64,000 bases of DNA from Galerina marginata (lineage: Eukaryota > Basidiomycota > Agaricomycetes > Agaricales > Galerinaceae). Below the pieces are notes generated by a model. That model saw only the letters and a program-made list of their open reading frames with translations, was not told where the DNA came from and did no database searches. Every line of letters starts with the position of its first letter. Position 1 is the first letter of the stretch. This document shows, piece after piece, positions 5,518-13,754 of the stretch. Location: contig JAECYW010000004.1 in the NCBI GenBank assembly GCA_023014335.1, forward strand, positions 806,001 through 870,000, in the 5' to 3' direction. The translations under genes were made by a program, and so were the position numbers.

Positions 5518-7983
5518 TCAACCAAAAACTGAAGCCTCAACCCAAGGAGTCTCTCCAGGAACCTTAATCTCCCACTCCGCCTCAAGGTTAACCTTCGCCC
5601 CGCTCCCAACCTTCCACTTCCACTCAAACCTGCCCTCCTTCTCGCCTCCCTTCCCAGAGTCCACAACCGGTTCCCAGCCAACCTTCAGCCCATCGTTCTT
5701 CAAATCCACCACCGCGCCGTCTTTCGCCCCAGCGAGACCGGCGGGCTTGCGTAGTATGACCTTGGCACGCTTGTCGTCCGACGTCGGGATCACCTCGCGC
5801 ACGATCAGGTCCGTGATGTCGAACTGATGCTTATTGTGGATCGAGATCTTCGTTGTGTATGTCGTGGTGTTGGTCACCTCGGAGAAGGTGCCTTCGTCGG
5901 ATTTCACGGTCTTTCCAGAGCGCGAGTAGGTTACTTTTGTGGAGGCGTCATCGCCAAGCGTGCATTCGAAATTGTCGCCGGTGTTGATATCCTATAAAGA
6001 AGGAAGAGACAGGGTTAGATTCGCCACATCCAATTGCGTAAGGACATACGTTGATAGATGTCTTTGAAACATAACTGTCATCGAGAATGACAGTGACGGG
6101 CCCAGAGAGCAGTCGATATTCGCTGCTATTCTTAACCTCGCACTGAAATACAAACCTCATCAGTAAACTAAAACTCATTCAGCGCTGATCAGAAATAGAC
6201 GCACCTGTAAGAACACCCTAGGGTCGATGCGAGGAATGCAGATGTAGGAGATCTTGGCCTCGAATGGTAGCACAGCGACGGAGACTTGATGATCGACACC
6301 ATCACTGGGAATAGTCGACTCCCCATGAACAGAGAAAGACACAGCGATGGGAGTCTCAGAAACGACGGTAGTTGGCTCAGTGATATTGGCAGGGCCGTCG
6401 ACCGCTTCAAACCCGCCGAGGTCGTCGTCGTCTTCTGGTAAAGGCATAGCCTCCGCTGCAGCTAGTTCTGCCTCATATTGAGCGATGCGAACTGGATCAA
6501 CTGTAACGGGTGCAGGCGCGGGGCCGAAGCTGAAGGCCGGAGGGCCAGTAGGGACAGTGGTCCCGAAAAGCCCAGTACCGATCGTTGTGTGAGCTGGAGC
6601 TGCACCGAACAGACTTGTACTTGGTTGTGCCGCAGGTGCACCAAATCCGCTGAAACCACCGCCGCCGCCGCCACCTCCGAATGCCGTCGACTGCGCTGGA
6701 GGTGCACCGAACAGATTCGTACTTGGTTGTACATTCGGTACACCAAATGCGCTACCTCCCCCGAAGGTGGCTCCGGTGTTCGTAGCTGTGCTCCCGAAGA
6801 TTGAAGTGCCAGTCGCAGCCTGAGGTTGGCCAAAGAGATTTGTATTTCCGTTGAAAGGCTTCGATTGCTGCTGCTGTTGATTTTGTTGGTTTTGGTTATT
6901 TCCGAAACGCGCGCCTTGAACATTTGAGTTCACGAAATTATTCATGACCATTGTGGGTTTGGAGGGGACGTAAGTTGACCGCTGTACGCCTGGTTGTAGT
7001 TTCACAGGTCGTAACTGTGGGATCTTTTTCACAAACAGGTCTGAGGCCACGGTGCTCAGCGTGAGCGAGGTGTTATTCCAGTCCTCGCCCGTGCCTTGGG
7101 TCACCCTGGCTCGGTAGTGAAGGGCGACGGATGAAGAAGGCTTCCCATTCTCGGTGGTGGCATGGAGTTCGTAGGTTGGTTTCCATTGAACATTGCTGAC
7201 GACTGAGAAGGGTTTAACAAAACACGAACATTTAAAATATTGAAAGACTGACTGTAGGTAAGTTTGAGCTCAACGGAACTCTCTGCATCCGCGAATATGA
7301 CGATGTCAACTTGGCCAAGGGTCGATCCTCGCTTCGCAGCTGCCTTTTCTTGCTCAGCCTCGATCTGACGAGTGATTTGGACGATCTGCTCGTTAAGCTG
7401 GGTAACCTGCACAGTTGATACAACTCAGCTGTGGCTCAGGAATTATGAAACCGAAAAGATCTTACAGCTTGCAACGTCTTACGACCACGGTCAACATAGC
7501 TCTCCAAGAATGCCCCCATCTGCGTAGGAACGACGTGCTCGCCCGTCAAGGTCTCGGCATACTTCAGTAGAAGCTGCGACTCTTGCTGTCTGACGGCTCT
7601 CTCACTCTCAAGACCAGCTTTCTTCACTAACAGGGTACGGATGACCTCAGAGGAGCTCTCAGGGGCATAAGACGCCGCTTTGTTGTTTCCGAGGGTACAG
7701 ACAACATCGAACAGACGAGCATCGCCCAGCCCGGAGACTCGAACAGAGTGTGTGTCAATAGAACTCGAAAGACCCCTTATCTCGACCTTATTCTGCCCTT
7801 TCTGTTGTTCGATGACAAAAAAGTAATGCATTGATATTTACAGTGTGGAATAGACAGGGGTGGGTTAGAACTTACCTTGAGGTCGAGTGTGAAAGTACGA
7901 GCGACCTCTGCCTTCTGTGATTTGAAGACGGTCACCGATTTAATGGCGTGGTCAGAGGCTTGAATGGTGAGAGTAGAGGCCAT
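5518..7983 (-). CDS. DUF4140/DUF4139 (mucoidy-inhibitor-A-like) protein with FG-repeat insert
   Basis: Six exons agree in phase: 7876..7983, 7801..7466, 7406..7253, 7202..6205, 6142..6050 and 5991..5518, giving 720 residues. The N-terminus (AIKSVTVFKSQKAEVARTF) followed by NKVEIRGL is the DUF4140 module. A coiled-coil linker covers roughly residues 100-175. The beta-rich DUF4139 domain follows, with VQWKPTYELHATT, GEDWNNTSLTLST, ISYICIPRIDP and a C-terminal GRFEWKWKVG. DUF4139 is split by an insert of about 190 residues (about 270-460) that contains eleven FG dipeptides, poly-Gln and poly-Gly. The biochemical function of the family is unknown; fungal members are thought to be cytosolic. A paralogue lies 1.6 kb away on the same strand, with the coiled-coil gene at 8385 between them. 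The start is the first Met of DUF4140 and matches the paralogue exactly. Confidence 0.88.
6523..6906 (-). repeat. FG/GLFG-type repeat-coding segment
   Basis: Inside exon 4 of the DUF4139 gene this part encodes eleven FG dipeptides in about 128 residues. Units include NLFGQ, SIFGS, SAFGV, NLFGA, SLFGA and GLFGT, with spacers rich in Ala, Pro, Thr, Gln and Asn plus a poly-Gly run. Composition and spacing resemble FG nucleoporins. The paralogue at 9585-12616 lacks the segment. Confidence 0.85.
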
Positions 7984-8384: not shown

Positions 8385-9327
8385 ATGCACTTCTCGCCAA
8401 AAGAATTCCTCTATATGTGCATTTGTGCCCCTCTGCTGACGCTTAAGAAAAATAACGCCGCTTCGTATTTCGAGTTCGCCGATAAACGATGGCCATGGCC
8501 TGTTATCACCTTTGCCATGTTCCTACAGGGCAATTACTCCAGCTTGACCTCTCAGCGAATGAGGGCTCTTCGTATCTCTGCTCTCGACCTCGTCACTCAG
8601 GTTAAATATGGGTTAGAACACGAATATGTTGTGGCCACCGTCGTGGACGATAAACACTCTCTGCAGCAATTCGTGTGCTTTGAGCGTCTGCCCAATTCGG
8701 CCTGCGAATATCCAAGGAGGCAGCCATCGCTAATGGATCTGGGAGTCTATAACAAAGCCGGCCGATTTTACGACTCGATGGAATTCACCGACAGAATTCT
8801 GCGATCGCCTCGAGACCGTGTACTGACTCACCTTAGCCTCCCAACTGACTCGGAGGCACCACTTTATTTTTATCAACTCGTCGTTCTGGCCAACGCTCTG
8901 CATAATATTGGGGGCTCGTATATTCTCTTTACGGTCGATCACTCCTGGTTTGCAGGAATGCTACTTAGCCTTGTCGGACATGAACGTAAACTTGAGCCTG
9001 AAATGATTGAACCTGGACACCGGACGTGGCAGAGCCGGTTGTTTCAACCAGTTGATGGTCAAGCCCTTGCAGCTCCTATGGAAAGACTCACTCCGGCCTT
9101 GACAAGGTATTATTCGGATTTCGAGAAATTTGAATCCATTGTATGTTTTTGTCAACCTTGTCTTAAACACGGAACTAATCTTGTGGTGAAAGATCATCTC
9201 AAGACAGCAACAGAAGATCTTGAACGACAGGCTCAAGGAAGAACGTCAAAGGCTCAGGGAAGAAATCAAGCAGGCCCAGGATGAAATCCGTCGGCTACGT
9301 GAGAAGACGAAAACTTCCAAAACGTAG
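8385..9327 (+). CDS. Hypothetical protein with C-terminal coiled coil
   Basis: Two exons: 8385..9140 and 9193..9327, with a 52-nt GT-AG intron. Splicing keeps the frame and gives 296 residues. The main body (residues 20-250) has a mixed alpha/beta composition with WPWPVITFAMFLQGNY and a hydrophobic stretch LYFYQLVVLANALHNIGGSY. I do not recognise a named domain, but this arrangement occurs in agaricomycete hypothetical proteins. After the intron the sequence becomes a charged heptad-like helix (RLKEERQRLREEIKQAQDE), clearly coiled-coil. Without splicing the frame would end in low-complexity sequence, which supports the intron. It sits between the two DUF4139 paralogues in the opposite orientation. 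Confidence 0.7.
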
Positions 9328-9584: not shown

Positions 9585-12500
9585 CTAAACCGACAACTTT
9601 TGGAACATAGTACAAAGATTTGACGAATCATTAACTTCATCGTCCAAACTGGTAGACCGCCTGTCTAATCCTATCTTCTCCAGAGCCAACAGAACGCGGG
9701 TGCGCGCGCCTTGCGGCCATTTTCCACCTATCAGGTTGCCGTTTTCGTATTCAGCGGTGACACCTCCGCGGACCAAGGCGAGCATTTCGATCCACTCCTG
9801 GCCCCAAATATTTTCGGCTTCGACGCCTAGCACATCAAGAGCAGCTAAGGAAAGAACCACAAAGTCAGCGAAACGGATAAGACAGAAAAGAAATATTACA
9901 AGCACGCACTGTAGATAAGTTGAGGAGAGATAGTCTCCTGAAGCAGTTTGGCATTCCCCATGATCCGTGCAAACCAGGTCCAAAATCTTGGAAGCTGGAA
10001 CATAGGATCCAAGGCTTTCTTTCCTGGCCGTATCTTCAAGATACTGAAATACACTCGCATGATGGCAGAAACACGATTGACGTACTCTTCGGGGGTTTCG
10101 CGCCCTTGCCCAATCATGCTCTTCCTCCAACCCGAGACCTTGATGAATTGTTCTGGAGAAGACCATGGCGTTCCGTCCTCGTCGTGGTCGGGAACTACAA
10201 TTGGGATCAGCCACCCGCCGGAGCGCTGGACGAGTTTGGCGAACAAGATTGGAGCAAAGTCGTCCAGGGTTTCGAGAAGACTGAATGCCACCTGTGCGAG
10301 GGGGCCGGCGGTGTGTTTCGCAGCTGACACTTCTACTTCTGCCTGCAGAACGATGGCTTTAGCAAGCGAGTAGCACAGGGCGATGTAGAGGTTCGAGTCG
10401 TGGGGTGGCGCAGTGGATGGTTTAACGATTTCGACAAGCTGAAGGGACTGTTGTGAAGTGTTGTTTAGTCCGCGATCACAAGGGCAGAAGGAGTGGGCAG
10501 TCTTCTTACAATTCCAGAAATCTGGACAGGGTCATTGGTTAGTTGTCCAATCCTGAGTACGATTTGTCTTCGTAGTCGATTCCACATTGCCTTGACCTCC
10601 TTATGAGCTTTGACGTATCGCAAAGGCCCTGTTTTAATGAACTGGAATCGTATCTGTGACAATGAAGAATAAAGAGCACTGATAAATTCACGTACCTGCA
10701 ACCTGGTTCGAGCAATTTTCCAATCGGTCTCCGGTGGAACTGAGGATAACGTCTGCGATTCCACCCAAGGTGTCTCTCCTAAGACGGTGACCTCCCACTC
10801 CGCTTCAAGGTTGACCTGAGTCCCACTCCGAACCTTCCCCTTCCACTCAAACCTGCCCTCCTTTCTACCTCCCTTCCCAAAGTCCCCAACTGGCCCCCAA
10901 CCAACCATCAACCCGTCGTCGTTCAAATCGACCGATGCATCTCGCTTGGCGTCCGAGAGACCCACAGGCTTGCGCAAAACGATCTTGACGCGCTCGTCGT
11001 CAGATGTTGGGATGACCTCGCGGACAATCAGGTCTGTGATGTCGAAGTTGTGCTTGTTATGGATAGAGATCTTCGCGGTGTACGTCGTCCTGTTGCTGAC
11101 TTCGGAGAAGGCGCCTCCATCGGAACGGACGGTTTTTTCGGAGCGAGCGTAAGTGACCCTTGTGGAGGTGTCGTCGCCGAGGGTGCATTCGAAGCTGTCG
11201 CCTGGATTGATGTTCTGTTATACAGTATAGAGACGTAAGATTGTGAATACCGAGAATGATGAAATGCTTACATTGATAGATGTCTTCGACACGTAGTGGT
11301 CATCAAGAGTAACGATGACGGGACCGGCAAGCAGTTGGTACACGGCGGTATTCTTAACTTTGCACTAGAATACGAAGCTTGGTCAGTACACCTAGAGGAT
11401 GCGTTCAAAATAATGTCCGCACCTGTAAGAAAACCCTGGGCTCTATATGGGGGATGCAGATGTAAGAAATCTTGGGCTCGAGCGGCAGTACTGCGACAGA
11501 GACCCGATGGTCGACACCATCGCTGGGTATTGTCGACTTTCCTTGTACCAAAAAAGCTACAACATCGGGAGACTCCAAGAAGACAGTAGCTGGTTCCGGG
11601 ATAGTAGTTGCATTTGTTGCGAACCCCGGAGGTGTGAGCTTGATGTACCTCAGTCGAGGGATGCATTTCACAACGTCGTCCGAAGTGGTGCTTAGCGAGA
11701 GCGAGACGTTATTCCAATCTTCACCTGTGGCTTGCGTCACCATTCCCCGGTAATGGAGGGAGCCAGAGGAAGAAGCCTGTCCGTTATTGGTGGTTACGTG
11801 GAGCCCGTAGTTGGGCTTCCATTGGACGTTGCTGACGACTGAGAAATATTGGTATAGGAGAAATGTCTAATGGGCAATAACTCACAGTAGGTGAGTTTCA
11901 GCTCAACGTAACACTCTGTGTCCGCAAAAACGACGACATAAATTTGGCCGAGAGTTGTTCCTCGCTTCAAGGCAGCTTTCTCCTGCAAAGCTTCGATTTG
12001 ACGGTCGATCTGTCTGATTTTCTCCTTGATCTGTGCGACCTTTACGATCGCGGTGGCACAGTCATTAACGATTCGTGATGGAAGTGAACAAAACCTACAG
12101 CTTGGAACGGTTTAAAGGCTCGATCGGCATAGCTCTTCAAGAACGCTGCAATTTGGGTGGGATTGCCTTGCTCGCCATTTAAAGTCTGTGTGTACTTCAG
12201 CAACAACTGCGACTCCTGTCGTCTTACGACGGCCTCCCTCTCAAGTTCAGCTTTCTCGGTAAAAAGAGCACGTATGTCCTCGGATGAGTCGTCGGAAGCG
12301 TAATTTTGTGCTGGGTTGGCTTCGACAGTACAGCCAATGTCAACCAGAATGCCGTTTCCTGCCACGGAGACTCGAACAGACTGAGTATCAATGGAACTTG
12401 GAAGGCCCTTGATCCTGAACTTATTCTGTCCTGGCTGTGCGACAAATATAATGAGTTTTGTGATAATGATGGTCTAGGATTGAAACCCAGAGGTAAAAAA

Positions 12501-12616
12501 CGACTTACTTTGAGGTTGAGGGTGAAAGTTCTTACGACCTCCGCCTTGAGTGATTTGAAGACTGTTACCGATTTGATAGCGTGGTTAGAGGATTGAATAG
12601 TAAATATTGAAGCCAT
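9585..12616 (-). CDS. DUF4140/DUF4139 protein fused to GLE1 C-terminal domain
   Basis: Nine exons: 12616..12509, 12434..12099, 12039..11886, 11838..11423, 11364..11272, 11214..10696, 10653..10510, 10447..9910 and 9844..9585. All phases agree, giving 855 residues with no stop. Exons 1-6 copy the architecture of the gene at 5518-7983: exons 1, 2, 3 and 5 have identical lengths (108, 336, 154 and 93 nt), and the FG insert is absent. From about residue 530 the sequence becomes GLE1-like: WNRLRRQIVLRIGQLTNDP, YIALCYSLAKAIVLQAE, a PMFQLPRFWTWFARIMGN block, and LDVLGVEAENIWGQEW. GLE1 is the mRNA-export factor at the cytoplasmic face of the nuclear pore that activates the DEAD-box ATPase Dbp5 with IP6. 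The N-terminal half of GLE1 is missing. The only optional intron is 10654..10695 (42 nt), which keeps frame either way. Two separate transcripts remain possible, but no intergenic space or start for a separate GLE1 is apparent. Confidence 0.85.
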
Positions 12617-13041: not shown

Positions 13042-13754
13042 ATGGTCCGATTTAAAGTGCGTAAGAATCCCGTGTCTTTGACTGACTTTTCTGATTTTGG
13101 GAAGTTTTTAGAACCGTTGGCTTCTCGTTGAATTTCTACCGGAAGCGCAAGGACGCGCCCAGCTCGGTAAACCTACAATCGGAAATGGGCCATCGCTTGA
13201 CGGAAAAGCTATATGGGCAGCCTTGAAGCAGTGCGTATTAGCGAACTTTGGGGATTCGGGATGGGGTGCCGTTGGGTTATCACTGACAGGTATGTTTTAT
13301 TACTCTATGAAAGAACTGGATCACTGGTAAAGGCTAACATCCTCGCCTTCCGTTAGTCAAGTACTTTTCTCCGACGACTAACATATGCATCATACGCGTT
13401 GGTCGCGACCAGCACAATATCGCATGGGGAGCTCTGACGCTTCTGACGTCCATCGATGGTGTGAGATACATCCCGAACGTTGTCCATGTATCAGGTGAAT
13501 AGATATTTTCCTCACCTAGAGAAAATTTCTGACTTGGGATCCTAGGTACTATCAAACACGCACAGCTCTCTGCTATCGCTCACAATCGCGAAGTTATCGC
13601 ACGGTATAGAGCTTTAGCCAAGACACCAGGTACGGCTTAATGTTTGTATCTAGATCCAGCTTTCATCTGATATTATTTCGTCCGGGTAGTGGACTATGAC
13701 GATGAAACATTTCTTGAAGGTAGCCAACGCGAAATCGAAGCTTTGCAAGATTAA
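13042..13754 (+). CDS. POP5: Ribonuclease P/MRP protein subunit POP5
   Basis: Five exons in perfect phase: 13042..13056, 13112..13289, 13357..13494, 13546..13629 and 13690..13754, giving 159 residues. The first exon encodes only MVRFK. The protein shows the Pop5/Rpp14 pattern: NRWLLVEFLPE near the N-terminus, a central WAALKQCVLANFGDSGWG, then YFSPTTNICIIRVGRDQ and VVHVSGTIKHAQ. Pop5 binds the catalytic RNA of RNase P (tRNA 5' maturation) and RNase MRP (rRNA processing) in the nucleus and nucleolus. Length is usual for the family. A decayed copy of its end lies near 25.2 kb. Confidence 0.92.

Follow-up and report, generated by a model that had tools for sequence, protein, structure and literature searches.

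A DUF4139 protein apparently fused to the C-terminal domain of the mRNA-export factor GLE1 in Galerina marginata

The window analyzed here, a stretch of 64,000 nucleotides from the mushroom Galerina marginata, carries two DUF4139 genes on its minus strand, one of which continues in frame into the C-terminal domain (CTD) of GLE1. The splice model of this fusion gene runs from an exact start at 12616 to an exact stop at 9585, and comprises nine exons and eight introns of 47-74 nt, all GT..AG, with a frame that is open throughout, consistent with the original prediction that nine exons keep phase from the DUF4140 start to the GLE1 stop. The predicted length of 855 codons is obtained with the intron 6 acceptor ...TTGTCACAG, and is replaced by 851 codons with the acceptor ...ATTCCAG, which yields the canonical GLE1 spacing. 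Retention of this 54-nt intron would leave the window frame open, at 869 codons. The features are:

9585..12616, minus strand: DUF4140-DUF4139-GLE1 fusion gene (splice model, Pfam matches, same protein in two pieces in strain CBS 339.88)
12616-12509, 12434-12099, 12039-11886, 11838-11423 and 11364-11272, minus strand: exons 1-5 of the fusion (splice model)
11214-10696, 10641-10510, 10447-9910 and 9844-9585, minus strand: exons 6-9 of the fusion (splice model)
10759..12616, minus strand: DUF4140/DUF4139 half, residues 1-521, FG loop cut to 12 residues (identity to the sister and to protein P0184 of CBS 339.88; insert length)
10732..10758, minus strand: junction spacer within exon 6, residues 522-530 (placed by hand from the exon table)
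9585..10731, minus strand: GLE1 CTD, residues 531-851, with a new tail of about 20 residues
10642..10695, minus strand: intron 6, at a canonical GLE1 position; the gene models of CBS 339.88 are divided here
5518..7983, minus strand: sister DUF4139 gene with six exons and a product of 720 aa, the second member of the tandem pair (model and 96.7% identity, 695/719, to P0185 of CBS 339.88)
6379..7002, minus strand: FG-repeat loop of the sister, residues 267-474, 11 FG (placed by hand)

Between the two DUF4139 copies an uninterrupted ORF occupies 8385-9284 of the plus strand; its true end may differ by splicing, and its first 252 residues gave no Pfam match. At about 13042-13754, also on the plus strand, a Pop5/Rpp14-type RNase P subunit gene adjoins the fusion (query with one wrong residue).

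Pfam places DUF4140 at residues 17-114 of the fusion (PF13600, 64.1 bits, cut-off 27), DUF4139 at 195-512 (PF13598, 108.3 bits, cut-off 31.8) and GLE1 at 547-790 (PF07817, 145.1 bits, cut-off 24), each above its curated cut-off; E-values of 3.1e-42 and 5.4e-31 were obtained. The join lies within exon 6 and not at an intron. Homology with the sister extends to PWVE (residues 518-521), after which the sister continues with ASVFG and stops, five codons on; the DUF4139 part had been predicted to end as in the sister, and it does so to within about five codons. After PWVE the fusion has nine spacer residues, without counterpart in the sister and reading LKTLSSVPQ in P0184, and then ETDWKIARTRLQ, which corresponds to DDWRVARTDLH of canonical GLE1. 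Homology with GLE1 thus starts at about residue 531-533 (ETDWKIAR), just beyond the coiled coil of the canonical protein, in agreement with the claim that the GLE1 part lacks its usual N-terminal half. The first five introns of the fusion are found at the positions of the sister's five introns, and the next three at canonical GLE1 intron positions, indicating that the GLE1 half arrived as genomic DNA with introns, starting at a domain boundary. Chance is excluded as the origin of this arrangement by the E-values, by the intron positions common to both parents and by the recurrence of the join in another genome.

Over 526 aligned residues, the DUF4139 half of the fusion and the sister share 68.6% identity. 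The fusion shares the whole two-domain body and the sister's five intron positions with DUF4140-DUF4139 proteins (named "Protein F37C4.5" or "mucoidy inhibitor MuiA family"), but lacks their FG-rich loop of about 200 residues and has a GLE1 domain in place of the stop. In a DUF4139 tree of 30 rows (28 of 61 database matches and two from the window), the fusion pair from the two Galerina genomes and the Galerina sister pair are each other's closest relatives (100/98), and both copies from Gymnopilus junonius branch outside them, consistent with a tandem duplication in the Galerina lineage. The genome (69.3 Mb, 43 contigs) holds at least 18 DUF4139 matches. They fall at a minimum of nine places, of which the window accounts for two and contigs C10, C16 and C40 for seven; these seven extra places, several on C10 and C40, form a small family expansion. 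GLE1 is found at two places only, and therefore none of the seven other DUF4139 places shows a GLE1 domain.

The second of the two GLE1 places, C42:1402361-1403043, belongs to the full-length gene that the original prediction had proposed to search for, which proved intact: a canonical GLE1 of 594 aa and seven exons, the first intron modelled with a GC donor, 97.5% identical (579/594) to P0001 of G. marginata CBS 339.88 and 98.3% (294/299) within the CTD. This identity places the window genome close to CBS 339.88, with which it is probably not identical. The neighbors of the C42 gene presumably, by eye, are oxidoreductase and P450 ORFs. With the canonical gene complete on C42 and part of GLE1 duplicated in the window, the proposal that a tandem duplicate landed inside GLE1 is not needed in that form, although its other element, a DUF4139 duplicate fused to the C-terminal half of GLE1, is supported. 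In a GLE1 tree of 35 rows (33 hand-picked from P0001-P0183, and two more), the fusion pair falls inside a Galerina-Hebeloma-Psilocybe group (100/99); its place beside Galerina GLE1 is weak (77/43), neither shown nor rejected, and its stem measures 0.38 versus 0.14 for Galerina GLE1.

The GLE1 half resembles GLE1 proteins (PF07817; PDB 3PEU, 3RRM, 6B4E-J, 9LT9) in its predicted CTD fold, which is assigned with confidence, in its conserved columns, in the residues of its IP6 pocket and in its intron positions. Relative to 27 canonical GLE1s it keeps 40/41 invariant, 57/63 95%-conserved and 75/83 90%-conserved columns; each canonical GLE1, when withheld from the set, retains no less than 0.932, 0.896 and 0.884 at these three levels, with medians of 1.000, 0.969 and 0.964. 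At the two looser levels the fusion, with about 90% of columns, thus sits below the canonical median, toward the lower end of the values normal for GLE1. The residue list for the fungal IP6 pocket was taken from PMC5998080. At the positions of yeast K264, K286, K333 and R374 the fusion has K, R, K and K, as does canonical Galerina GLE1 (the K264 equivalent being taken by hand from a profile alignment), and at the yeast K378 position P0121, the CBS 339.88 counterpart of the GLE1 half, has H where the canonical copies compared have R. The fusion differs from GLE1 in its additional C-terminal tail and in the absence of the N-terminal unstructured and coiled-coil half, which is present in the C42 gene and here replaced by DUF4139.

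The extent to which the fusion is constrained bears on the possibility that it is a decaying chimera, an accidental fusion, translated or not, that drifts without function. Between the two genomes it changes four- to eight-fold more than canonical GLE1 and the sister, indicating weaker constraint, and it has lost both the FG loop and the N-terminal half of GLE1, all of which speak for decay. Nevertheless, no stop and no indel occurs over 851 compared residues, although this count draws on gene annotation, which favors open frames. Neutral simulations with the same number of changed residues yielded means of 3.5 stops in the DUF4139 half and 2.3 in the GLE1 half, with zero stops in just 9/300 and 27/300 runs, respectively. 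The replaced residues are also somewhat milder than neutral, a level matched in 9 and 29 of 300 runs, and the near-complete set of invariant GLE1 columns has been kept despite the long branch. Pairwise dN is 0.23-0.25 and dS 1.8-1.9 for the GLE1 half against C42, and 0.20-0.22 and 1.2-1.3 for the DUF4139 half against the sister, giving dN/dS well under 1, though dS is near saturation and the constraint belongs partly to the other copy. Decay is therefore unlikely, and we read the constraint on these sequences as relaxed but real. With its join recurring in a second, independently sequenced genome, the fusion would seem to be a genuine new gene that is being maintained, rather than an artifact of assembly.

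An independent hint of a tie to the nuclear pore, absent from the original prediction, comes from the FG loop of the sister DUF4139 proteins. In an alignment of 46 of the 61 database matches, an FG-rich loop interrupts DUF4139 in 14/24 Agaricales/Russulales proteins (P0184 not counted; orders assigned from species names). These 14 have 4 to 12 FG pairs in the loop, a number above that expected from composition (p below 0.01, 2,000 shuffles each), and the stretch from the first FG to the last holds 0 to 5 charged residues. Of the other ten, three show a weaker signal (2 or 3 FG, p 0.01-0.04) and seven have at most one FG; in the 21 other homologues, which include those of Rhizoctonia solani, a chytrid, an amoeba and bacteria, the loop never holds as many as two FG. 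Among five FG-bearing proteins scanned, the Nucleoporin_FG cut-off is reached by P0204 alone (32.3 versus 32.2 bits), with P0201 just below (31.6 bits) and P0185, P0192 and P0203 weak; for P0185, the sister orthologue, PF13634 has an E-value of 0.062, under the cut-off. Searched with Nucleoporin_FG (PF13634), the window genome shows six matches, located on C34 (2.1 Mb), C43 and C1, and none of them is the sister loop. When the fold of the DUF4139 body was compared with others, no relative emerged with confidence. In both genomes the loop of the fusion consists of 12 residues without FG, a single FG being present in the entire DUF4139 half of the window protein; the presence of the loop in the sister and in Gymnopilus suggests that the fusion has lost it. 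A nucleoporin-like FG-repeat loop in DUF4139 proteins could mark an unrecognized pore-linked family. A bolder version of this idea is that mushroom DUF4139 proteins are an unrecognized FG-nucleoporin-like group that acts beside Gle1/Dbp5 in mRNA export, the fusion hard-wiring this partnership as a "Rosetta stone"; this is a speculative reading that we consider unlikely. If it were true, one pore link would show itself twice and independently, in the FG loop of many mushroom DUF4139 proteins and in the Gle1 domain of their paralogue.

In CBS 339.88 the fusion corresponds to two annotated proteins, P0184 (551 aa, DUF4140 and DUF4139, 86.3% identity to the fusion, 468/542) and P0121 (310 aa, GLE1, marked partial, 87.1%, 269/309). 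Taken at face value, this annotation would mean two adjacent genes, a DUF4139 gene whose end falls within exon 6 or shortly beyond it and a short GLE1-like gene of its own, and P0184 as printed does imply a stop nine codons into a retained intron 6. The ends of the models point in the other direction. P0184 finishes with SSVPQEADWKIARTKLE and then VREFSSPLY, which is intron 6 read through (VREFISALY in the window), and it carries exon 6 including the GLE1-derived DWKIARTKLE ahead of the intron, whereas P0121 has no start codon and begins with exon 7, at the exon boundary right after intron 6. The 54 nt of this intron in the window, at a canonical GLE1 place, leave scant room for a terminator and a promoter. 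The window protein has methionines 1, 472, 716 and later ones in common with the CBS 339.88 models, in which its M561 and M697 are K and T. The two genomes thus share no start between residue 472, inside DUF4139, and residue 716, well within the GLE1 domain. This gives no support to a conserved, separate GLE1 frame beginning at 10.4-10.8 kb, where the original prediction had placed the start of a possible separate gene. Two genes are therefore improbable; the CBS 339.88 annotation has apparently broken a single gene at intron 6, and the two resulting models presumably adjoin, judging partly from their ends. By comparison of these sequences, this is a lineage-specific fusion gene common to two Galerina genomes, and the fusion would be older than the split between them.

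The division of the gene into two models in CBS 339.88 has hidden the fusion. No protein had both halves by Pfam among the 120 matches listed (138 found) or among 61 proteins of a second search, which scored just the 7,995 candidates with most words in common; the limits of both searches admit 851 aa. A further search, of about 176 to 561 aa and thus excluding the size of the fusion, listed 75 GLE1 proteins. As the original prediction had supposed, a DUF4139-GLE1 fusion seems undescribed: no account was found in the literature searched, which leaves most subscription journals outside, nor did that literature give a match for DUF4139 in fungi, and the accessible part of PMC2951903 contains nothing on such a fusion.

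Two other explanations fare less well. The fusion might compete with canonical Gle1 or serve as its decoy, by binding to Dbp5 or IP6 off the pore and either damping export or acting in translation, consistent with the retention of CTD columns, the loss of the N-terminal half and the translation roles of Gle1 described in PMC7864074; this variant of the best explanation, from which it differs just in the sign of the effect, is distinctly improbable. An assembly or scaffolding error uniting two unrelated pieces, which the original prediction had raised, is so very unlikely as to be negligible, no point having been found in its support and the join, which lies inside one exon, recurring in the independent CBS 339.88 models at 86-87% protein identity, a strong argument against it.

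The fusion is best read, from its sequence, as a relocated Gle1-type helicase activator, that is, as a Galerina chimera of a duplicated DUF4139 protein without FG loop and a GLE1 CTD, probably a helicase activator that is placed by its DUF4139 half. According to this proposal, a DUF4139 gene would have been duplicated in tandem within the Galerina lineage, and one copy would have lost its FG-rich loop and gained the GLE1 CTD, as genomic DNA with introns, about five codons before the old stop. In the predicted product, DUF4140/DUF4139 would form a scaffold for a folded, helicase-activating Gle1 domain complete with IP6 pocket, whereas the N-terminal half of Gle1, responsible for pore binding and the coiled coil, would be missing. 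The Gle1 domain would most likely still bind and stimulate a Dbp5-type DEAD-box helicase, and the DUF4139 half would determine where this stimulation occurs. Transcription as one mRNA, helicase activation and an altered location are all inferred. The N-terminal parts of GLE1 are reported to be important for its location at the pore; since these parts are missing, the tie of the fusion to the cytoplasmic side of the nuclear pore is likewise only inferred.

A possible parallel is found in Boletus coccyginus, where P0112 has a second GLE1 CTD behind a RING finger (281/307 residues identical to the canonical P0102). As in Galerina, the CTD is cut at nearly the same boundary and placed behind another protein, beside a canonical GLE1 (P0102) in apparently the same genome; the Boletus chimera differs in having its CTD joined to a RING finger, in stemming from a recent duplication and in being represented by one gene model only. 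P0112 suggests that the GLE1 CTD can be captured more than once, even though this single model could be a merger of neighbors. Further candidates from Volvariella (P0082, PF00069), Tricholoma (P0109, PF00364) and Pleurotus (P0087, PF13560) were not used as parallels, as they may be neighbor mergers.

DUF4139 is present from bacteria to fungi, judging by protein names in the search, and also occurs in nematodes, and no function for it was found in the literature searched, where it is mentioned by two papers. The fusion suggests that the Gle1 CTD is separable in nature from its N-terminal half while the canonical gene persists. Together with the FG loops, a maintained fusion with a helicase activator would make the orphan DUF4139 family a testable nuclear-pore/mRNP candidate.
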